Of a stretch of DNA of 64,000 nucleotides, positions 6,526 to 40,714 are shown one piece after another. The translations under genes and the position numbers were made by a program. Every line of letters begins with the position of its first letter. The first letter of the stretch is position 1. The notes beneath the pieces were generated by a model. It saw nothing but the letters and a program-made list of their open reading frames with translations, was not told the DNA's origin and did not search any database. The DNA comes from Nitrococcus mobilis Nb-231 (lineage in GTDB: Bacteria > Pseudomonadota > Gammaproteobacteria > Nitrococcales > Nitrococcaceae). The stretch is taken from contig NZ_CH672427.1 of the NCBI RefSeq assembly GCF_000153205.1, positions 3,464,596 to 3,528,595 on the forward strand, written 5' to 3'.

Positions 6526-7176
6526 TTATCGCCGGTTAGCCCTATTCAATCCGAATAATCCGGCGAGACCGAGACTCAAGAGGGCGAGGGTTGTCGGCTC
6601 TGGGACCATCATGAGTACATCCCTCGGGACATCGAACATTGCGATGGGAACGTCACCGCCAGCATTCGGGGCGAGCAACGAATCAATCAGACCAACACCT
6701 TCGGCGACTGTGTCCAGATCGCCGATAGGGACAACGTCTAGCATTGTGGGTGCGAACGTACCAATGCCATCGAACTCGATCTCGATTGCCAGCAGCGAAA
6801 CAAAACCATCTGAATCGAACCCTGTGAAGTCGAGGGTGGAGGAATCGAGATCAGAATCCGCAACCATGGCAAAGGTAAATTTGGGCAGCTCGTTCTTGTC
6901 CTCGGGCCACGTCACGTGAGCCAGATGCCTGACGCCGACTACCTTGTCCCCCTGCTTCACGACAGTCTTTCTAATCACACAGGGGTTGAGCGTCCCATTG
7001 TCATTACTGAACTTGCCTGTCAAGTTACTGCAGGGCTGGGTAACGTCGTTCGCGTTTTTGTCGTTTTCGTCCTTTACTGCTGACCACTGAACGGTAAACG
7101 GGTAGGAGCTAGTTGGAATAGCAATCAAGATTACGAGAAACACCGCATTAAACAACGACAACCTTTTCATGCCCAT
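6526..7176 (-). CDS. PEP-CTERM sorting-domain secreted protein
   Basis: A 216-residue exported protein. It has an N-terminal signal peptide (hydrophobic stretch after MGMKRLSL, ending near PTSSYPF) and a C-terminal PEP-CTERM tripartite signal: the motif VPEPTTLALLSLGLAGL followed by a basic tail (NRANRR). PEP-CTERM proteins are processed by exosortase (EpsH/XrtA) in bacteria that make extracellular polysaccharide. No exosortase is in the window, but the EPS-type MarR genes and polysaccharide cluster nearby fit that lifestyle. The middle (about residues 30-180) is a soluble domain I do not recognise. Two Met codons are possible starts (7176 and 7170). Confidence 0.88.
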   Translation of the reverse strand: MGMKRLSLFNAVFLVILIAIPTSSYPFTVQWSAVKDENDKNANDVTQPCSNLTGKFSNDNGTLNPCVIRKTVVKQGDKVVGVRHLAHVTWPEDKNELPKFTFAMVADSDLDSSTLDFTGFDSDGFVSLLAIEIEFDGIGTFAPTMLDVVPIGDLDTVAEGVGLIDSLLAPNAGGDVPIAMFDVPRDVLMMVPEPTTLALLSLGLAGLFGLNRANRR

Positions 7177-7703: not shown

Positions 7704-7712
7704 CAGCGGTAG

Positions 7713-9087: not shown

Positions 9088-9267
9088 GGTTTCGGCGTGC
9101 CCATCGAAGAGCACTGGCTGCGCGGCCCGCTGCGGGAGTGAACGGAAGAATTGCTCGACGAGCGGCGTATGCGCGAAGAGGGCTTTTTCAATCCGGTGCC
9201 GATCCGGCGAATGTGGGGAGAACATGTCTTCGGAAAGCGTCGCTGGCACTGTCATCTGTGGGACGTC
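9088..9267 (+). pseudogene. Asparagine synthetase (AsnB-type) C-terminal remnant
   Basis: In one frame the sequence reads GFGVPIEEHWLRGPLRE, a stop, then TEELLDERRMREEGFFNP and later WHCHLWDV. This is the conserved C-terminal block of class B asparagine synthetases (K.GFGVP...WLRGPLR.W...LL and the HLWD ending). The stop at 9139-9141 (TGA) sits where the family has Trp, so a single TGG to TGA change is likely. The gene has lost its N-terminal glutaminase and most of the synthetase domain, and abuts the Rpn fragment. AsnB-like amidotransferases are frequent in exopolysaccharide loci. Confidence 0.7.
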
Positions 9268-9402
9268 CGGCCGAGCCGTCCCTACACAGCGACAATCTGG
9301 TCGCGCGCTTGAACCATGCCGAACATGGCCTATCCCGCGGCGCGCAAACCGGAGATTTTCGCGCAGGCGCTGCGGGGTCTGCTAGCCTGGAGCCGGACCC
9401 GG
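9268..9402 (+). pseudogene. Fragment of Rpn-family nuclease gene (duplicate of the gene at 11166)
   Basis: About 135 bp closely matching bases 11599-11732 inside the intact Rpn-like gene: both encode PAEP-LHSDNLVARLN, and the DNA is near-identical through the GGAGATTTTCGCGCAGGCG stretch. An extra A after the Asn codon (TTGAACCATGCC versus TTGAACCTGCC) shifts the frame. The 3' end of the gene is deleted; the fragment runs straight into the 26-bp repeat that lies downstream of the intact gene too. Confidence 0.85.
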
Positions 9403-9407
9403 TGTAG

Positions 9408-9433
9408 GGCGCAATAGCGCAGCGTATTGCGCC
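9408..9433 (+). repeat. 26-bp palindromic repeat, copy 3
   Basis: Arms GGCGCAAT and ATTGCGCC. Identical over more than 40 bp, including flanks, to the copy at 12103 (both continue GGACGAACCGTTTTCGACCT), so this copy is part of a larger duplication together with the Rpn fragment. Confidence 0.8.
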
Positions 9434-9543
9434 GGACGAACCGTTTTCGACCTGTCGATCCCAGCGCCCTTTGAGCACAACCGTCCTGTCTTTGGCGCAA
9501 GGTTATTGTGTAAATCACCTCTGTTCATACGCGAGCTGGGCGC

Positions 9544-9822
9544 GTGTGGATACACATACCGGGTTTGGTCAGGGTCGCGGCATTCAGCCATACTGCATAT
9601 GGCAATCGCGGGTTTTTCCAGATAAGAGCTTGCCGGCCGAGGTGCCGGAGACGGTTATTCGGGAGCGGCACGGGCGAACGGATGCGCACAGCGGCTGCGT
9701 CGCGCTGCAGGCACCCAGCCCGTTTCGCTGTAACCAGCGGGTGCGCATCATCGAAGGGCCGTTTGCCGGCTGCGAGGCGCTCTTCTCCTCTCCTTGCGGC
9801 GAGGAGCGCGCGGATATCCCAG
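9544..9822 (+). pseudogene. Decayed RfaH/NusG-type antiterminator gene
   Basis: Pieces of a NusG/RfaH-like protein are readable in two frames. IPGLVRVAAF (from 9556) fits the end of the NGN domain. LPAEVPETVI, then PFRCNQRVRIIEGPFAGCEA and GEERADIP, fit the linker and KOW domain (consensus PF..GQ.VRI.EGPFAG.EA). The frame changes between them, the N-terminus is missing, and the KOW domain is cut off exactly where an ops-like core begins (9822-9831). RfaH-type factors stimulate long polysaccharide operons through ops sites, and a perfect ops core lies upstream of the polysaccharide cluster here. Confidence 0.7.
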
Positions 9823-9831
9823 GCGGTAGCG
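9822..9831 (+). promoter_or_regulatory. ops-like core GGCGGTAGCG
   Basis: Ten bases identical to the first ten of the ops element, preceded by CCCA as at the full site 14105-14116. It lies at the truncation point of the rfaH/nusG-like pseudogene, so it may mark an old recombination junction between two JUMPstart-like leaders rather than a working site (the next two bases are GG, not TG). Confidence 0.45.
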
Positions 9832-9942
9832 GGCCCGAGTGGATCGCATGTAACCTGCATCCGCAGCCTGGAGTTTTTGTCAGCTTAGGCGTCCATCATG
9901 GTTACGATGAACGCGATAGTGGCGTTATGCGACAATGGTTTT

Positions 9943-10350
9943 ATGAGCACGGAATCGAATGCCCCGCTTCTGGCTCGCCTAGCGGCATTGCTCGCCGAGC
10001 AACCGGATATCCAACTCGCAATCGTCTTCGGCTCCCTCGCGTCGGGCCGGTTGCGGTCGGATAGCGACGTTGATGTGGCAGTACTGGCTGATGAGCCTAT
10101 CAGCCAGGAGCGCAAGGCGCGTCTGATCGAATTGCTTGCGCAAACAAGCGCTCGCCCCGTGGATCTGGTGGACCTGCGCACGGCCGGTGTGCCGATCAGG
10201 CGCTCAGTATTGCTTGGTGGAAGGCGGCTGCTATGTCGAGACAAGGCCGCCTACGCTTCCCTCCTGTCACGAATGCTCGCGGACAGCGCCGATTTCCTTC
10301 CTTACCGGGAAAGGCTGCTACGGCAACGCAGGGACGCATGGATACGTTGA
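9943..10350 (+). CDS. mntA: MntA-type nucleotidyltransferase antitoxin
   Basis: A 135-residue minimal nucleotidyltransferase. The catalytic signature is GSLASGRLRSDSDVDVAV with D42 and D44. In the MntA-HepT system this enzyme transfers AMP to a tyrosine of the HEPN toxin and neutralises it. ATG 9943 is chosen because the conserved domain starts about 20 residues later; an upstream in-frame ATG at 9898 would add 15 atypical residues. It overlaps the HEPN gene by 13 bp, the usual arrangement of this module. Confidence 0.87.
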   Translation: MSTESNAPLLARLAALLAEQPDIQLAIVFGSLASGRLRSDSDVDVAVLADEPISQERKARLIELLAQTSARPVDLVDLRTAGVPIRRSVLLGGRRLLCRDKAAYASLLSRMLADSADFLPYRERLLRQRRDAWIR

Positions 10351-10772
10351 TTTTGCAGGAGAAGCTTGAGGCCCTTCGCCGCTGTGTCCGCCGCATAGAG
10401 GAGAGGCGAGCCGACTCAGCCGGTGAGCTGGGTAAGGATCTTGATCGCCAGGACATCGTGACGCTCAATTTAACGCGTGCAGTCCAATTGTGCGTGGATA
10501 TGGCCGTGCATGTCATCGCCGAGTCCGAGCAGATGGCACCACAGACGATGGGAGAAGCATTCGAGGGTCTTGCCAAGCTGGGATTAATCAGCGAGGCTTT
10601 GTCCTTGCGGATGAAGGCAGCGGTGGGTTTCCGCAATATCGCTATTCACCAATATCAATCCATCGATTGGGACATCGTCCATGCCATTACCTGGAAGGGC
10701 TTGGAAGATTTCCGCAATTTCGCGCGTGCTATGGCAACCTTGACCGACAACGGCCCAAATACCTCGGTCTAG
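10338..10772 (+). CDS. hepT: HepT-type HEPN toxin (DUF86)
   Basis: A 144-residue HEPN-domain protein following the MntA-type gene. It carries the RX4HXY motif of HepT RNases as R99-NIAI-H104-Q-Y106; the Tyr is the known AMPylation target in this family. Start ATG 10338 lies within the end of the antitoxin gene. Expected activity is cleavage of tRNA or mRNA, held inactive by the partner. A truncated EPS-MarR copy follows 180 bp downstream. Confidence 0.88.
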   Translation: MDTLILQEKLEALRRCVRRIEERRADSAGELGKDLDRQDIVTLNLTRAVQLCVDMAVHVIAESEQMAPQTMGEAFEGLAKLGLISEALSLRMKAAVGFRNIAIHQYQSIDWDIVHAITWKGLEDFRNFARAMATLTDNGPNTSV

Positions 10773-10865
10773 CAATGTGCCGGACTACCGCCTTCCACCC
10801 GCCAACCCACTGCACCTTCGGGGCGAAGTCCCTGCGTTCGGAGCAGGGCTGGATATAAATTTTCT

Positions 10866-10953
10866 ATGTTCATTTTCTGAACGTAGATAGCACTCGCCCG
10901 TCTGCCGACGCGAGCCGCCGATATCGGCAACAGCCGATGCGGAAGACCGAACC
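10866..10953 (+). repeat. Duplicated leader of the EPS-MarR gene, copy A
   Basis: This stretch before the MarR copy at 10954 is clearly similar to bases 12212-12302 before the second copy: both share a TGTTCAT...TGAACG start and the block GAGCCGCCGATATYGGCAAC followed by GAAGACC. The third, intact copy lacks this leader. Confidence 0.65.
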
Positions 10954-11121
10954 ATGCATCCCGAGGATCTGCGCTTCCAGGTGCTGCGTCACCTGGAGCA
11001 AAAGCCGGATATGACACAGCGCGAGCTTGCCGCCGCGCTCGGCATCAGCCTCGGGCGGGTCAACTATTGCGTGCAGGCGCTGATCGAGCGGGGCCTGGTC
11101 AAGGCGGCGAATGAAGCCTGA
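10954..11121 (+). pseudogene. EPS-associated MarR-type regulator, truncated copy A
   Basis: 55 codons reading MHPEDLRFQVLRHLEQKPDM and on to ALIERGLVKAAN, then EA and a stop. It is nearly identical to the first half of the intact gene at 13420 but lacks the second half of the winged helix and the coiled C-terminus. It keeps the recognition-helix region, so a short product could still bind DNA or interfere, but it is best read as a remnant. Confidence 0.8.
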
Positions 11122-11165
11122 AGCCCAGCGCCGCTCGTTTTGGCCAAGGAAGAGAAGGCAATCGT

Positions 11166-12068
11166 GTGAGTCACGACCAGAACTTCAAAAACCTCATCCT
11201 GGACTACCCGCACCAGGCGCTTCGCTTCTTCGCCGCCGAAGAAGCAGGCGGCATTGACCAGGCCACCAGCATCCTCCCGGTGCGCCAGGAACAACTCCAG
11301 GAACGCTTGGGGGAGCGGTTTCGCGAGCTCGACGTGCCCTTGCTGGTGGAGTGGCCGGACGGCCGGCGCGAGGCGATGCTGTTCGTAGTGGAGGAGGAAA
11401 GCGACCCACGGCGTTTTTCCATCCACCGCCTGGCCCATTACTGTCTGGACCTCGCGGAGCTGCTCGACCTCACCCGAGTGGTGCCGGTGGTCATCTTCCT
11501 GCGCGGCACCGGCGCGCCGCGCGCGCTGGCCCTGGGCGGCGATCGCCATGAGTACCTGCGCTTCCGCTATCTGGCGTGCGAGCTTGCCTCGCTACCGGCC
11601 GAGCCGTACCTACACAGCGACAATTTGGTCGCGCGCTTGAACCTGCCGAACATGGCCTATCCCGCGGCGCGCAAACCGGAGATTTTCGCGCAGGCGTGGC
11701 GGGGCCTGCTGAGTCTGGAGCCGGAGCCGGAGCGCCAGGCCAAGTACCTGGATTTCATCGACATCTATGCCGCGCTGGATGATAATGAGCGGCGTGTGTT
11801 TCAGGCACACTATCCCGACGAGGTACACGCCATGAGCACATTCGCCGAGCGCTTCACGGAGCGCGGTCTAAAGCAGGGCCTGCAGCAAGGCCTCGAGCAG
11901 GGCCTACAGCAGGGCGAGGCGGCTGTCTTGATCCGCCAGATGGAGCGCAAATTCGGCGCGCTTAGCGAGGCGCAGCGCCGGCGCATCGAGACGGCGGACG
12001 CCGAGACGCTGCTTACCTGGTCCGAGCGCATTCTCGTGGCTCAAAGCCCGGAAGAGGTGCTGCGCTGA
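11166..12068 (+). CDS. Rpn-family recombination-promoting nuclease / putative transposase (PD-(D/E)XK)
   Basis: A 300-residue protein of the Rpn/YhgA-like PD-(D/E)XK group with a C-terminal DUF4351-type segment. The nuclease part spans about residues 1-120, with acidic positions in WPDGRREAMLFVVEEES. The C-terminal third contains a low-complexity helix of QGLQQGLEQGLQQGE repeats (residues about 236-254), then QMERKFGALSEAQRRRIE and a short terminal helix. Start is GTG 11166, matching the usual MSHDQNFKNLILDYPHQAL N-terminus. Rpn proteins are DNA endonucleases, some proposed to act in recombination or phage defence. A broken duplicate lies at 9268. Confidence 0.85.
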   Translation: MSHDQNFKNLILDYPHQALRFFAAEEAGGIDQATSILPVRQEQLQERLGERFRELDVPLLVEWPDGRREAMLFVVEEESDPRRFSIHRLAHYCLDLAELLDLTRVVPVVIFLRGTGAPRALALGGDRHEYLRFRYLACELASLPAEPYLHSDNLVARLNLPNMAYPAARKPEIFAQAWRGLLSLEPEPERQAKYLDFIDIYAALDDNERRVFQAHYPDEVHAMSTFAERFTERGLKQGLQQGLEQGLQQGEAAVLIRQMERKFGALSEAQRRRIETADAETLLTWSERILVAQSPEEVLR

Positions 12069-12102
12069 TCCTTCGAGGCCAGCTACTAACGAGCAACGGT
12101 AG

Positions 12103-12128
12103 GGCGCAATAGCGCAGCGTATTGCGCC
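12103..12128 (+). repeat. 26-bp palindromic repeat, copy 4
   Basis: Arms GGCGCAAT and ATTGCGCC, 35 bp after the Rpn-like gene stop. Shares extended flanks with copy 3, showing that the Rpn gene 3' end and downstream leader were duplicated together. Confidence 0.8.
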
Positions 12129-12211
12129 GGACGAACCGTTTTCGACCTGCCGATCCCAGCGTACTTTGAGCACAACCCCTTGCCTTTGGTCCGCAGTTGT
12201 GGTCTAAATGA

Positions 12212-12302
12212 CCTCTGTTCATCCATTGAACGCATAGAGCGTTCCACGCGCCGCCTCATAGAGCCGCCGATATTGGCAACAGCCGCTGTAGAAGACCAAG
12301 CC
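12212..12302 (+). repeat. Duplicated leader of the EPS-MarR gene, copy B
   Basis: Homologous to 10866-10953. It precedes the frameshifted MarR copy. Confidence 0.65.
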
Positions 12303-12591
12303 ATGCGCCCCGAGGATTCTGCGCTTCCAGGTGCTGCGCCACCTGGAGCAAAAGCCGGACATGACCCAACGCGAGCTTGCTGCCGCACTTGGCGGCAGCG
12401 TCGGGCAGGTCAACTACTGCATGCAGGCGCTGATCGAGCGGGGCTTGGTAAAGGCGGCGAACTTTCGCAACAGCGGCAACAAGCGTGCCTATCTCTATAA
12501 GCGGATCCTGCAGGGTTTGGCCAAGAATGTGGCGCCGCGCTTTTTTTCAGTAAAGCGTGTCCGGTGCGACTGGCAAGTCATTGAAGGGTAA
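12303..12591 (+). pseudogene. EPS-associated MarR-type regulator, frameshifted copy B
   Basis: Starts ATGCGCCCCGAGGATTCTGC: one extra T compared with the intact copy at 13420 (GAGGATCTGC) shifts the frame after five codons. From 12331 the correct frame resumes with LRHLEQKPDMTQRELAAALG through FRNSGNKRAYLYK. The last third diverges from the intact copy (ending RCDWQVIEG), so the C-terminal helix is lost as well. Confidence 0.8.
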
Positions 12592-12596
12592 GCGCA

Positions 12597-12896
12597 ATGC
12601 GCCTGACGCTCGAGCAGGTTCGAGTCATTCGTGAGAAAGTGCAAGCCGCCTTCGGAGCGGGCGCGCGCGTTTACCTGTTCGGCTCGCGACGGGATGACAC
12701 CGCCCGTGGGGGCGATGTGGATCTCTATGTCGAGGTGCCTCATTTTGTGGAGAACCGTGCCGCAGCGGCAAGTCGGTTGACGGCCGAACTGCAGCTCGCG
12801 TTCGGCGATCAGCATATCGACATTCTTATGGCCGATCCAAATACAAGGCGACAGCCGATCCACGAGATGGCCAAGGCGAAGGGCATCCCCCTATGA
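12597..12896 (+). CDS. MNT-type nucleotidyltransferase antitoxin
   Basis: A 99-residue minimal nucleotidyltransferase with the signature YLFGSRRDD and GGDVDLYVE (D40 and D42 as catalytic acids). It differs in sequence from the first MntA-like protein (9943), so the two modules are separate acquisitions. It overlaps the HEPN gene as ATGA at 12893, which indicates translational coupling. Expected role is AMPylation and silencing of the downstream HEPN protein. Confidence 0.85.
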   Translation: MRLTLEQVRVIREKVQAAFGAGARVYLFGSRRDDTARGGDVDLYVEVPHFVENRAAAASRLTAELQLAFGDQHIDILMADPNTRRQPIHEMAKAKGIPL

Positions 12897-13420
12897 ATAA
12901 CCCGGTGGATAGTGCCCGTTTATTGTTCCTCATGGATACCGTAGAGCGGCAAGGGCGTCACCTACTCACGACCACGGGCCGGTTGTTCAGTCAGCCCATC
13001 GACGCCAACTGGGTTGAGGCTCTAGAGGAGAACCCCGGCCTTGCCGAGAGGCTCGACGCCTTCGTCGCCCGATTCGCACAGATGCAGGACACCATTGGCG
13101 ATCGGCTGATCCCGGAGCTGAGGCGGCAGTTGCTCGAGACCCCCGGAGCGGCCTTGGACAACCTGAATCGGATGGAGAAGCTGGGATTGTTATCGTCCGT
13201 CATTGATTGGGTCGAGGCGAGGAATCTGCGCAATCGCCTGGTTCATGAATACATGCGTGATCCTGAGGAGTTCGCCGCCGCCTTGAAGCGTGCCCATGCG
13301 TTGGTGCCCTTATTGATCGAAACGTACAACGCCCTCAACGGCTATGCGAAGGCCCGTTTCGGTAACCACGCGAGTCAATGGCCGGACACCCTGGATAATA
13401 GGCACATAAAGGTCCCTTAA
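12893..13420 (+). CDS. HEPN-domain toxin of MNT-HEPN pair
   Basis: A 175-residue HEPN protein. The RX4HXY motif is R113-NRLV-H118-E-Y120 (RNRLVHEYMRD). It is longer than the first HepT-like protein and has an extra N-terminal helical segment. Its stop TAA shares a base with the start of the intact EPS-MarR gene (TAATG), so toxin, antitoxin and regulator are probably co-translated from one mRNA, an unusual coupling to a polysaccharide regulator. Confidence 0.85.
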   Translation: MNNPVDSARLLFLMDTVERQGRHLLTTTGRLFSQPIDANWVEALEENPGLAERLDAFVARFAQMQDTIGDRLIPELRRQLLETPGAALDNLNRMEKLGLLSSVIDWVEARNLRNRLVHEYMRDPEEFAAALKRAHALVPLLIETYNALNGYAKARFGNHASQWPDTLDNRHIKVP

Positions 13421-13767
13421 TGCGTCCCGAGGATCTGCGCTTCCAGGTGCTGCGTCATCTGGAGCAAAAGCCCGACATGACCCAGCGCGAGCTTGCCGCC
13501 ACGCTCGGCATCAGCCTCGGGCGGGTGAATTACTGCGTGCAGGCATTGATCGAGCGGGGTTTTGTAAAGGCGGCCAACTTTCGCAATAGCCGTAATAAGC
13601 GCGCCTATCTCTACAAGCTGACCCCAAATGGGCTCACGGAGAAGGCGGCGCTTGCGCTGCGCTTTTTAAGGCGCAAAGAGCAGGAGCGTCAGGCACTGCT
13701 CCAAGAGATCGAGGCGCTGCGCGCCGAGCTCGGTGAGGCCTCATCGCATGAGCAGGGAGAGCAATGA
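13420..13767 (+). CDS. EPS-associated MarR-family transcriptional regulator (intact copy C)
   Basis: A 115-residue winged-helix protein of the MarR-like group found upstream of exopolysaccharide clusters. The helix-turn-helix lies at about residues 22-45 (TQRELAATLGISLGRVNYCV), the wing at FRNSRNKRAYLYKLTP, and the C-terminal helix RRKEQERQALLQEIEALRAE is likely a dimerising coiled coil. It is the only intact one of three copies. It overlaps the HEPN stop by one base and lies 505 bp upstream of the polysaccharide cluster, so control of that cluster is a reasonable inference. Confidence 0.85.
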   Translation: MRPEDLRFQVLRHLEQKPDMTQRELAATLGISLGRVNYCVQALIERGFVKAANFRNSRNKRAYLYKLTPNGLTEKAALALRFLRRKEQERQALLQEIEALRAELGEASSHEQGEQ

Positions 13768-14019
13768 TTATGCGGTGCCGGCACGCCGTTCATTGCAAGC
13801 CGCGCGAGGAGGGGGCGCCTGAGTTGCTAAGTTATGGGGTCTTCACCTGATGGTCCGGCTGCGTCGGTGCCGCGGTGGTCGAAGGATGCCACTCATCGAT
13901 TTGATTTTCCAGGCATCTGTTCGTGCCTCTGGATGAGCTTACCGGAAACGCGGCTCCGTCCGCTCCATGCTCGTGGTGACGGGCTTATGGCCTTTGGTAA
14001 AGGCCCGTCCTAGCTGGAG

Positions 14020-14049
14020 GCGGTTATTCGCGGCCTAACCGCGGCTTTT
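14020..14049 (+). terminator. Possible intrinsic terminator
   Basis: Stem GCGGTTA / TAACCGC with a 9-nt loop, followed by GGCTTTT. It would separate the MNT-HEPN-MarR transcript from the polysaccharide operon. The T run is short, so the call is weak. Confidence 0.3.
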
Positions 14050-14077
14050 GAAGGCGCAGCGCCCAGAAAATCAATAT
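14048..14077 (+). promoter_or_regulatory. Candidate sigma-70 promoter of the polysaccharide operon
   Basis: TTGAAG at 14048-14053 and CAATAT at 14072-14077 with 18-bp spacing. Transcription would begin about 20-25 bp before the ops element, as expected for a JUMPstart-type leader. The -10 match is only partial. Confidence 0.25.
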
Positions 14078-14104
14078 TCTTGTCGCTTGGAGGTCGATAC
14101 CCCA

Positions 14105-14116
14105 GGCGGTAGCGTG
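14105..14116 (+). promoter_or_regulatory. ops element (RfaH recruitment site), GGCGGTAGCGTG
   Basis: A perfect match to the 12-base ops core of JUMPstart sequences, on the coding strand, 157 bp before the first gene of the polysaccharide cluster. In enterobacteria RNA polymerase pauses at ops and recruits RfaH, which suppresses termination over long O-antigen and capsule operons. Position and orientation are right for this 26-kb cluster. The upstream part of the classical JUMPstart is not conserved. Confidence 0.8.
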
Positions 14117-14272
14117 CGTGGATGAGGATGAAGCGCATGTCTTTATGTCCACAAATTACGCTGCCATTGCAAGGTGGCGTAATCGGTTATTACTTATGCA
14201 GCATTCCACCGAGAATGCCGGCGAACGATGCTCGTGTATGCATAAAGGCAAATGACAGGGAGCCAAAAGCAT

Positions 14273-15337
14273 ATGCAAAAAGCCACGCCCGACGCCATTC
14301 GTGATCGGCAGATTCGTTTTGGTTTAGTCGGTTGCGGACGTATTGCCCAGAAGCACATTGAGGCCATTCAGCAGCATGCAGACCGCGCCGTGCTGGCAGC
14401 CGTCTGCGACACCGACCCGCAAGCGCTGCAAATAGCGCAGGGGAAAACGGATGCCCCGGGTTATCCGGATATGGAAGACCTCTTGGAACGCGGCGAGGTG
14501 GACGCCGTATGCCTATGTACTCCGAGCGGCTTACATTCGGATCAGGCGGTTGCTGCCGCGGAGGCCGGACTTCATGTCATCACCGAAAAGCCCATGGCTA
14601 CTCGTTGGGCGGATGCCAAGCGCATGGTTCGTGCCTGTGACGAGGCTGGCCGTTATTTGTTCGTAGTCAAGCAGAACCGCCGCAATGCCACCCTGCAGTT
14701 GCTCAAACGCGCCATTGAGCAAAAGCGCTTTGGCCGCATCTATATGGTCAATCTCAACGTTTTCTGGACGCGTCCCCAGGCGTACTACGACAGCGCGCGC
14801 TGGCGCGGCACCTGGGAGTTCGATGGCGGCGCACTGATGAACCAAGCTAGCCACTATGTGGATCTGATCGATTGGCTTATCGGCCCGGTTGAAAGCATCC
14901 AGGCCTATACGGCCACGCTGGATCGAAACATCGAGGTCGAAGATACGGCGGTCATGAACATTCGCTGGCGCAGCGGTGCTCTAGGTTCCATGAACGTCAC
15001 TATGCTTACTCATCCCAAGAACTTCGAGGGCTCGATAACCATTCTCGGCGAGAAAGGCACCGTGCGGGTAGGAGGGGTTGCCGTAAACGATATCCAGCAC
15101 TGGGAGTTTGCCGAGCCGCATCCGGACGACGAGTGGGTTGCAGAGGCGAATTACGATACTACTTCCGTTTATGGTTATGGGCATCCTTCGTATTACGATA
15201 ACGTAATTATGGCCCTAAACGGTGAAGCCGAGCCGGAGACTGACGGGCGGGAGGGCCTTAAATCCATGGAAGTTCTCATTGCCAGCTACCTCTCCGCCCG
15301 GGACGGGCGGCAAGTCGCCCTCCCGCTGGAATATTAG
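14273..15337 (+). CDS. wbpB: UDP-GlcNAcA 3-dehydrogenase, WbpB/WlbA type (Gfo/Idh/MocA)
   Basis: A 354-residue NAD-dependent dehydrogenase that oxidises the C3 hydroxyl of UDP-N-acetylglucosaminuronic acid, the first committed step toward UDP-2,3-diacetamido-uronic acids. It has the Rossmann motif GLVGCGRIAQKHI, the Gfo/Idh EKPMA motif, and a C-terminal domain with YYDNVIMALNG. Start ATG 14273 is chosen because AGGGAG (14257-14262) lies 10 bp upstream; an in-frame ATG at 14252 has a poorer site. Followed by wbpD- and wbpE-type genes, interrupted by a GxxExxY insert. A WbpA-type 6-dehydrogenase is not in the window. Confidence 0.87.
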   Translation: MQKATPDAIRDRQIRFGLVGCGRIAQKHIEAIQQHADRAVLAAVCDTDPQALQIAQGKTDAPGYPDMEDLLERGEVDAVCLCTPSGLHSDQAVAAAEAGLHVITEKPMATRWADAKRMVRACDEAGRYLFVVKQNRRNATLQLLKRAIEQKRFGRIYMVNLNVFWTRPQAYYDSARWRGTWEFDGGALMNQASHYVDLIDWLIGPVESIQAYTATLDRNIEVEDTAVMNIRWRSGALGSMNVTMLTHPKNFEGSITILGEKGTVRVGGVAVNDIQHWEFAEPHPDDEWVAEANYDTTSVYGYGHPSYYDNVIMALNGEAEPETDGREGLKSMEVLIASYLSARDGRQVALPLEY

Positions 15338-38559: not shown

Positions 38560-38664
38560 ATGAAAAGGCATGTTCTCGGTATCGGTGCGCGGGGGCTCGT
38601 CGGGTCGCACCTCTGTGGGCGGCTTGATCCGAATGGAAAGCGGGTGATGGCAGTGGCAACGTGA
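38560..38664 (+). pseudogene. SDR/epimerase N-terminal remnant
   Basis: A 34-codon frame reading MKRHVLGIGARGLVGSHLCG and then a stop. It looks like the Rossmann start of a nucleotide-sugar epimerase (consensus V.G..GFVGSHL), truncated after the first beta-alpha unit, directly before another SDR gene. Confidence 0.45.
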
Positions 38665-38702
38665 GACAAGTGGCCACGCAATTGGATAGTAGAGGAGCGC
38701 AC

Positions 38703-39659
38703 GTGGACAGACCCCTGCGCATTGGCGTCACGGGGGCTTCCGGTTTTGTGGGGCGTGTGCTTCTGGAGCGCCTTGCCCGGGAGGGCTATCAAATTGTTGC
38801 CCTCACGAGGCAGCCAATCGACCTGCAAATTGCGACGGTGCGGGCAGTCGGGGATCTGGGCACTGCCGAAGGGCTGGGCGAGGCGCTGGAAGGCGTGGAC
38901 GTGCTCATCCATTTGGCGGCGCGGGCACATGTAATGCGTGAGCATCGTTCTGATGCCGTGGCGCTTTATCGTGCGGTTAATGTCGATGGTACCGTGCGTC
39001 TGGCCGAAGCGGCGGTAGGAGCGGGTATCAAGCGGATTGTATTTGTCAGCAGCATCAAGGTGAATGGTGAGCAAACCACGGCACGTCCATTCACTGCGGA
39101 CGACGAACCCGCGCCCGAGGATGCTTATGGCCTCTCGAAGCGGGAGGCTGAGGCGGCGCTTTGGAGGATCGCCGATAAAACGGGCCTGGAGGTTACCGTT
39201 ATCAGACCGCCCCTTGTGTACGGCCCTTTGGTAAAAGGGAATTTGCGTCGTCTTGTATCCTTTGTCCAGCGTGGACTGCCGTTGCCGTTGGGGGCTGTGC
39301 GGAATCGGCGCAGCCTCGTCAGCGTCTACAATTTATGCGATTTGCTCGTTCGATGCGTCGAGCACCCTGCAGCGGCGGGACAGACCTTTCTCGCTTCAGA
39401 CGGAGAGGATCTTTCCACTCCCGGGTTGATTCGAGAGATTGCCGCCGCGCTTTCACGACCGGCGCGGCTGTGGCCCGTTCCGGTACCGGTTCTCAGGTTG
39501 GCGGGTCGGATAACCGGAAGGCTCGATGAAGTCGACAGGCTCTGCGGCTCGCTGCAGGTGGATATCGCAAAGACATGTAATGTGCTTGACTGGCATCCGC
39601 CGTTGTCGGTCCGAGAGGGTTTTCGCCGTGCCATGGGCCGGGGCATAGCAAATTCGTGA
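38703..39659 (+). CDS. wbpV: UDP-4-keto-6-deoxy-HexNAc C4-reductase, WbpV/WreQ type
   Basis: A 318-residue SDR. It has the Rossmann motif RIGVTGASGFVGRVLLERL, SSIKVNGEQTT and the active site AYGLSKREAE. In the WbpV group the enzyme reduces the 4-keto-6-deoxy sugar to UDP-QuiNAc or UDP-FucNAc for the WbpL-type initiating transferase encoded next. GTG 38703 is preferred over GTG 38661 because AGAGGAG (38691-38697) is correctly spaced for it. A UDP-glucose 4-epimerase-like role is the alternative. Confidence 0.83.
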   Translation: MDRPLRIGVTGASGFVGRVLLERLAREGYQIVALTRQPIDLQIATVRAVGDLGTAEGLGEALEGVDVLIHLAARAHVMREHRSDAVALYRAVNVDGTVRLAEAAVGAGIKRIVFVSSIKVNGEQTTARPFTADDEPAPEDAYGLSKREAEAALWRIADKTGLEVTVIRPPLVYGPLVKGNLRRLVSFVQRGLPLPLGAVRNRRSLVSVYNLCDLLVRCVEHPAAAGQTFLASDGEDLSTPGLIREIAAALSRPARLWPVPVPVLRLAGRITGRLDEVDRLCGSLQVDIAKTCNVLDWHPPLSVREGFRRAMGRGIANS

Positions 39660-39703
39660 AGCCAGGCCATTATGCCCTTGCCTCTCAGTAAAGATAATTT
39701 CCG

Positions 39704-40714
39704 ATGCTGCTATTGGTATTGCTGGCTGCAGCCTTCGTGCTCAGCGCTGCCCTGACCTACGTCCTTCGGCTGTATGCGCTAAGAGTGGACCTGCTCGATG
39801 TGCCGAATGCGCGGAGCTCGCATGATCGGCCGACACCGCGGGGTGGTGGAATGGCCGTGGTGGCGGTGGTTCTCGTCGCCGGCTCGTGGCTCTGTCTCAC
39901 AATCGGGCTGAAAGGGGGTATAGCCGCGGCGCTTCTGGGCGGTGGCGCACTGGTGGCGGCCGTAGGATACCTCGATGACCATGCGGATGTGCCTGCGCGC
40001 TGGCGTTTGGCGGTGCACGTCATGGCGGCTGTCTGGGCGGTGGCATGGACCTTACCTTGGCCGCCATTGCCCTTGCCCGGCGTTGAGCTGCCGCTTGGCC
40101 GGGTCGGAGCCGTGCTTGCGGTGCCGGCAATTGTCTGGGTGCTGAACCTCTATAATTTTATGGACGGCATCGATGGGATCGCCGGTATGGAGGCGGTGAC
40201 GGTTGCCGCCACGGGGGGGGCATTGCTGTGGTGGGGCGGCTCGTCTGGGTTGGCTATGGTGTGCGCGACGGTGGCCGCCGCGTCGCTGGGCTTTCTGATC
40301 TGGAACTGGCCGCCGGCCAAGATTTTCATGGGCGATGCCGGTAGTGGTTTTCTCGGATTCCTGTTCGGGGCGCTCGCGGTTGTCGGGTTCGCCGAGGGCG
40401 CGCTGGCACCCTGGGTGTGGCTGATCCTATTGGGGGCGTTCATCGTGGATGCTACCTGGACGTTGGCCCGGCGGGTCTTGCGCGGGGAGCGCTTCTACCA
40501 GGCCCACCGCAGCCATGCCTACCAGCGCGCGGCGCGCCGCTATGGCAGTCACTTGCCGGTGACGGTGGCGGTTGGGGCCATCAACCTCGTCTGGCTCGCT
40601 CCGCTGGCTTGGGCGGCGGCCGCCTGGCCGCAGTGGGGTATAGTGCTGCTGGCTGTTGCCTGGATGCCGTTAATGCTGCTATGTCTGTATTTCCGAGCCG
40701 GAATGCCGGAGTAA
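39704..40714 (+). CDS. wbpL: Initiating undecaprenyl-phosphate HexNAc-1-P transferase, WbpL/WecA family
   Basis: A 336-residue polytopic membrane enzyme with about 10-11 segments that links the first sugar-1-phosphate to undecaprenyl phosphate. Family motifs: DVPNARSSHDRPTPRGGGMA (cytoplasmic loop 1), GYLDDH, NLYNFMDGIDGIAGMEA with the catalytic acids, MGDAGSGFLGF and RAHRSHAYQRAAR-like HxH loop (AHRSHAYQR). It follows the WbpV-type gene, the order seen in Pseudomonas O-antigen loci. A WbpM partner is expected next but absent. Confidence 0.92.
   Translation: MLLLVLLAAAFVLSAALTYVLRLYALRVDLLDVPNARSSHDRPTPRGGGMAVVAVVLVAGSWLCLTIGLKGGIAAALLGGGALVAAVGYLDDHADVPARWRLAVHVMAAVWAVAWTLPWPPLPLPGVELPLGRVGAVLAVPAIVWVLNLYNFMDGIDGIAGMEAVTVAATGGALLWWGGSSGLAMVCATVAAASLGFLIWNWPPAKIFMGDAGSGFLGFLFGALAVVGFAEGALAPWVWLILLGAFIVDATWTLARRVLRGERFYQAHRSHAYQRAARRYGSHLPVTVAVGAINLVWLAPLAWAAAAWPQWGIVLLAVAWMPLMLLCLYFRAGMPE

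Follow-up and report, generated by a model that had tools for sequence, protein, structure and literature searches.

Enterobacterial LPS and capsule operons are headed by an ops/RfaH leader (JUMPstart). In other bacteria, NusG paralogues such as UpxY and TaA are encoded in cis within their target operons (PMC7593976), and a 2026 preprint on RfaH diversity (PMC13015549) describes RfaH relatives encoded beside long operons. About 60% of Pseudomonadaceae are without RfaH, and the authors of that survey infer its loss in some lineages (Wang et al. 2020, PMC7593976). The sections of the survey considered here also report HTH regulators in the neighbourhood of one RfaH cluster and refer to ops-like sequences as causing diverse RNA polymerases to pause; these sections contain no account of orphaned ops elements beside rfaH pseudogenes, and neither "pseudogene" nor "orphan" occurs in the main text of the preprint. 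In the open-licence literature, a study of the E. coli capsule was all that came up for RfaH and the ops element together with a pseudogene, no paper came up for RfaH and the ops sequence combined with loss of the gene, and Nitrococcus appeared alongside RfaH only in a reference list. The same literature gave no recognisable account, by name, of MarR_EPS as a partner of RfaH leaders, beyond the HTH mention in those sections of PMC7593976.

The locus described here lies in a 64,000-nucleotide stretch of the Nitrococcus mobilis Nb-231 genome, referred to as the window, to which all plain coordinates refer. It resembles the enterobacterial leader in that the same 12-nt ops core precedes a long operon for a surface polysaccharide, in coding-strand orientation within the leader. 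It differs in that no RfaH was found in Nb-231, where a formerly local (cis) rfaH survives only as a remnant. As with UpxY and TaA, an antiterminator gene would once have headed the polysaccharide cluster, whereas the Nb-231 gene is of the RfaH type, has the ops element behind it and is dead. As in the Pseudomonadaceae, the loss of RfaH from an RfaH-bearing ancestor appears to be lineage-specific, but here the remnants of rfaH and ops can still be recognised at several loci, decayed to differing degrees; both comparisons refer to the sections of PMC7593976 named above. We consider it probable, at roughly 85%, that the site at 14105 is an orphaned (fossil) ops element from a MarR_EPS-rfaH-ops leader whose antiterminator died.

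The sequence GGCGGTAGCGTG is exact at 14105-14116 on the plus strand, the non-template strand in the operon leader, and is the sole exact copy in the 64-kb window. The first-pass annotation is correct in reporting a perfect ops core with the same orientation as the polysaccharide genes; its distance of 157 bp to the first gene holds for the ATG at 14273 but becomes 135 bp for the in-frame ATG at 14252. The bare 12-mer count is weak evidence, because the two matches with at most one mismatch in the window (0.61 expected) are reached by 13 of 100 shuffles as well. An extended leader pattern was defined as GACACCCCA-ops-C, 22 nt long, with up to three mismatches allowed. In the genome it occurs only at 14096-14117 (one mismatch) and at 9813-9834 (three mismatches), the latter 4.3 kb upstream on the same strand. 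It was matched in nine of 59 genomes, Nb-231 included, and the reversed-pattern control gave 0 in all 59. Several relatives have (G)ACACCCCA upstream of ops in common. No sigma-70-like promoter was found in 13600-14400, against 0.4 expected from shuffles, so that this absence says little.

Two exact 12-mers occur in the 3.62-Mb genome, and the second (L001) was dismissed as a chance occurrence, being antisense within an unrelated 388-aa ORF. This pair of copies, one of them apparently fortuitous, is what could be cited for the 14105 site being a chance 12-mer too. However, the site lies between an rfaH remnant, which ends 95 nt before it, and the polysaccharide cluster; this placement, the homologous spacer in the congener G003 and the extended-leader match with its empty controls make such a coincidence barely credible. 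Judged by its context, the 14105 site is authentic, a genuine ops element by descent. The suggestion of an RfaH-type leader stands by descent, in a host that, judged by its relatives, is no enterobacterium.

With regard to a factor that could act at this site, one Pfam NusG-family gene was detected in the genome, the housekeeping nusG beside secE, rplK and rplA. The NCBIfam RfaH model TIGR01955 gave two genome matches at E<=10, both below the cut-off, namely NusG (49 bits) and a 58-position stretch at 9633-9815 (24 bits), which is the first of the rfaH remnants described below. As a control, the same model scored above the cut-off in 30 of the 59 genomes searched, Nb-231 being among the 59; G009 (140.2 bits against 144.5) was also counted as RfaH-positive. 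A search of the five genomes of the genus (G000, which is Nb-231, and G001-G004) at E<=10 with alignment A1 (166 positions), built from the intact RfaH proteins of 15 relatives' loci, returned only fragments of at most 85 of the 166 positions, and none in G002; no intact rfaH was found in any of the five. The first-pass annotation had proposed that an RfaH-type factor antiterminates the 26-kb operon and had named an intact rfaH-like gene as the thing to look for and the lack of an RfaH-like NusG paralogue as a refutation. No such gene and no RfaH-like NusG paralogue were found, and the adjoining rfaH is a pseudogene; with only one NusG-family gene and no intact rfaH, the antitermination reading is unsupported for the present-day genome. 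NusG itself is an improbable new reader of ops: it is 22% identical to an intact RfaH, and the alignment points to no RfaH-like change.

A functional ops element served by an RfaH encoded elsewhere, for instance on a plasmid missing from the assembly or within one of its gaps, would fit a perfect site in its proper place, and a hidden rfaH is conceivable because the assembly consists of nine contigs. This is nevertheless very unlikely, given that the genome is rated 100% complete, that the search of all five genomes in the genus turned up no intact RfaH and that both local rfaH copies are broken.

These two copies were recognised by tblastn with 30 intact RfaH proteins as queries, which matched 9633-9809 and, weakly but collinearly, 13782-13958, a short way ahead of the 14105 ops. 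In a purpose-written frameshift-aware alignment to an RfaH profile of 166 positions, remnant 2 (13770-14009, plus strand) covers positions 1-86 with six frameshifts and lacks the C-terminal domain (score 146.5). Remnant 1 (9633-9809, plus strand) covers positions 85-142 and lacks the N-terminal domain and the last 24 positions (score 166.4). The controls were far lower for remnants 2 and 1, respectively: the maxima of 200 dinucleotide shuffles per remnant were 53.0 and 62.9, and the reversed-profile scores were 29.5 and 37.9. No other place among 510 window tiles on both strands scored above 53.7, and 150 random 500-nt stretches of the window reached at most 51.2.

Remnant 1 sits inside a longer open frame of otherwise unrelated sequence, for which no Pfam match was obtained at 0.001. 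It also aligns in a single, stop-free frame of 218 aa, so that it is called dead because of its missing domains and not because of stops. At neither locus does one ORF carry both the NGN and the KOW domain. A working RfaH split into two halves was considered and rejected because the N-terminal half has six frameshifts, though the frame of the C-terminal remnant is open. As a sole cause, sequencing error was likewise discarded: entire domains are absent, and the lesions in other genomes of the genus are different ones. Behind remnant 1, at a distance of 12 nt, lies a second ops with one mismatch (9822-9833, plus strand). Behind remnant 2, the 61-nt segment 14057-14117 (plus strand) shares 75% identity with the spacer and ops that follow an rfaH remnant in G003. 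Given this identity, rfaH appears to have lost its C-terminal half by deletion while the old rfaH-to-ops spacer and the ops element were kept.

In front of remnant 2 lies an intact gene of the MarR_EPS family (TIGR04176; 13420-13767, plus strand), which scores 153.7 bits against a cut-off of 88 and covers positions 3-103 of 105. Its dN/dS is 0.069 against the G004 copy, 0.096 against the G002 copy and 0.273 against the more distant copy of G001. MarR_EPS is under purifying selection against G002 and G004, and these low values indicate that it was retained while rfaH was lost. The gene belongs to an island (9228-13767) of repeated leader modules in one direction, with 77-93% DNA identity between repeats. 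The island contains three MarR_EPS copies, the two others being partial (10954-11112 and 12310-12534, plus strand), an intact DUF4351 gene (11166-12068) and a DUF4351 remnant. Two nucleotidyltransferase and HepT-like pairs, toxin-antitoxin-like, lie within the island at 9898-10772 and 12597-13420, the ORF at 12597 having been named by eye; pairs of a similar kind are found near MarR_EPS in some relatives. An intergenic repeat (9404-9528 and 12099-12222, 87% identity) starts near GTAGGGCGCAATAGCGCAGCGTATTGCGCC, with similar text near 7710, and a gene for a small PEP-CTERM protein (6526-7176, minus strand) lies upstream of the island. The cluster content behind near-identical MarR_EPS genes varies among species, and for this reason the MarR_EPS leader may be an exchange anchor.

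The frameshift-aware alignment yielded ten rfaH remnants in the genus loci scanned. The best downstream ops-like site had no mismatch in three cases, one in one, two in one and three in two, and no credible site (4-5 mismatches) was found in three; a single site with three mismatches is marginal. The window remnants account for the values 0 and 1. The four remnants on contig 127 of G003 gave 0, 0, 2 and none credible (4), both exact ops copies there lying behind rfaH remnants. The best site had three mismatches both on contig 407 of G003 and on contig 252 of G001. Contig 3 of G001 retains a 13-position rfaH stub after MarR_EPS, with no credible ops (4), followed by Gfo/Idh, and contig 45 of G004 retains 39 positions with no credible ops (5). 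The two-mismatch site and one of the two three-mismatch sites lie 59 nt behind the remnant, like the perfect sites of G003 (59 and 60 nt).

No rfaH remnant above the alignment threshold was found on contig 185 of G004 or contig 77 of G002. Their MarR_EPS genes are 95% and 90% identical to the window copy, and DNA similarity to the window ends at 13803 and 13782, respectively, about 11 and 4 codons into rfaH; the next ORFs are Wzx-type flippase-like by eye. The G002 leader has AAAGGTAGCGTG, by eye an ops with three mismatches. At the loci seen, rfaH was thus lost by different lesions. At 1759-2818 of locus L065 (contig 127 of G003), the 5' part of a Gfo/Idh gene is joined to a C-terminal rfaH fragment followed by a perfect ops, a junction that may be a sign of recombination between leaders. 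Conservation of the site in relatives, another expectation of the first-pass annotation, was not borne out in the congeners G001, G002 and G004, which have no exact ops beside their full-length MarR_EPS.

The ancestral leader would have had the order MarR_EPS, rfaH, spacer, ops and polysaccharide operon. Locally made RfaH would have been loaded onto RNA polymerase at ops and would have carried the polymerase through the long operon. The gene then decayed or was deleted in the genus, leaving here two remnants that are both followed by an ops. Since RfaH is no longer made, the ops element would be unable to recruit an antiterminator and would at most still pause RNA polymerase, as ops-like sequences do alone. 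The intact MarR_EPS would be the more likely present regulator of the cluster.

What speaks against a fossil is that three of the ten genus remnants keep a perfect ops (14105 in the window and two in G003), a possible hint that such sites are still used, although its perfection is what drew attention to the window copy in the first place. An orphaned ops might have been kept for another use, as a pause site working with the housekeeping NusG, NusA, Rho or MarR_EPS in early operon control. This would explain why the core stays perfect, at 14105 and twice in G003, although the gene next to it has eroded. It would also fit the pausing that ops-like sequences impose on diverse RNA polymerases, as cited in the sections of PMC7593976 considered, and the purifying selection on the adjoining MarR_EPS. 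We regard such reuse as unlikely, since G001, G002 and G004 do without an exact ops beside a full-length MarR_EPS, the other ops sites behind remnants carry one to three mismatches or are gone, and NusG, 22% identical to an intact RfaH, gives no sign of RfaH-like change. The more specific version, in which ops was kept after the loss of RfaH as a stand-alone pause element heading the 26-kb operon together with the housekeeping elongation machinery and MarR_EPS, appears slightly less likely again. The fossil leader remains the preferred reading.

Full-length MarR_EPS matches were obtained in 26 of the 59 genomes, two of them (G029 and G035) below the model cut-off; G003, with partial MarR_EPS only, was left out of this comparison. 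An exact ops within 1 kb of a full-length MarR_EPS on the same strand was present in 19 of 20 RfaH-positive genomes but in only two of six RfaH-negative ones (Fisher p = 0.005, for genomes that are related and not independent). The RfaH-positive exception is G031. The two RfaH-negative genomes with such an ops are Nb-231 and G021, the latter 87% complete and without even NusG in the RfaH search. The frequency among RfaH-positive genomes points to MarR_EPS as a partner of RfaH leaders, and MarR_EPS and an exact ops, where they occur together, may be a marker of polysaccharide operons under RfaH control throughout the order.

The nearest ops lies upstream of MarR_EPS in 14 of these 19 genomes, by 57-85 nt in 12 of the 14, and downstream in the other five (G006, G029, G032, G035 and G043). 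In G032 and G043 rfaH lies between MarR_EPS and ops, which is the order of the window. Four of the 30 intact rfaH loci (G005, G011, G032 and G043) have an exact ops 102-282 nt downstream of the gene, so that the cis order rfaH-ops is known among the relatives but is a minority arrangement. The other 26 intact loci had no exact ops in the roughly 0.6-1.5 kb downstream examined, and in G008 and G012 an exact ops occurs about 2.1-2.2 kb behind an intact rfaH. In five genomes (G026, G028, G036, G038 and G050), two or more exact ops copies share a strand with no more than about 1-7 kb between them, which suggests multi-ops leaders or several short operons.

Downstream of the leader, the polysaccharide cluster (14252-40714, plus strand) was delimited by its ORF run and family matches, and the gene run of about 26 kb in the first-pass annotation was confirmed in that long plus-strand ORFs continue to about 40.7 kb. 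The last two ORFs (38661-40714) had no match at 1e-40, so that the end at 40714 is set by ORF continuity only. The first gene (14252-15337, plus strand) encodes a dehydrogenase of the Gfo/Idh/MocA family by family match. LegB, LegC, NeuC, NeuB, HisH, HisF2, WbuX and WecB were identified above curated cut-offs, and weaker matches were obtained for an acetyltransferase, an aminotransferase, glycosyltransferases and Wzx-like, PseF-like, RmlD-like and PseB-like proteins. The matches above the cut-offs represent a legionaminic-type and acetamidino-sugar pathway. For the best 80 of 580 Gfo/Idh relatives, the upstream flank, taken up to 1 kb (L149 and L192 have much less), contained one exact ops (L151) and one with a single mismatch (L193). 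The flanking ORFs of at least 60 aa in the same best 80 of 580 included no RfaH (E 1e-3) and a MarR_EPS relative (E 1e-5) in ten cases. Given that almost none of these 80 has an ops, the element does not travel with this first gene.

A perfect ops on its own is no proof of RfaH control. The Nb-231 cluster, if used, must be expressed without RfaH, and if the site does still act in pausing, it would be an antiterminator site that has outlived its antiterminator. The genus thereby offers a natural experiment on RfaH-type operons after the loss of RfaH. Because the stepwise loss is still readable in its genomes, the means by which lengthy polysaccharide operons of the RfaH type stay expressed without RfaH become a testable question.
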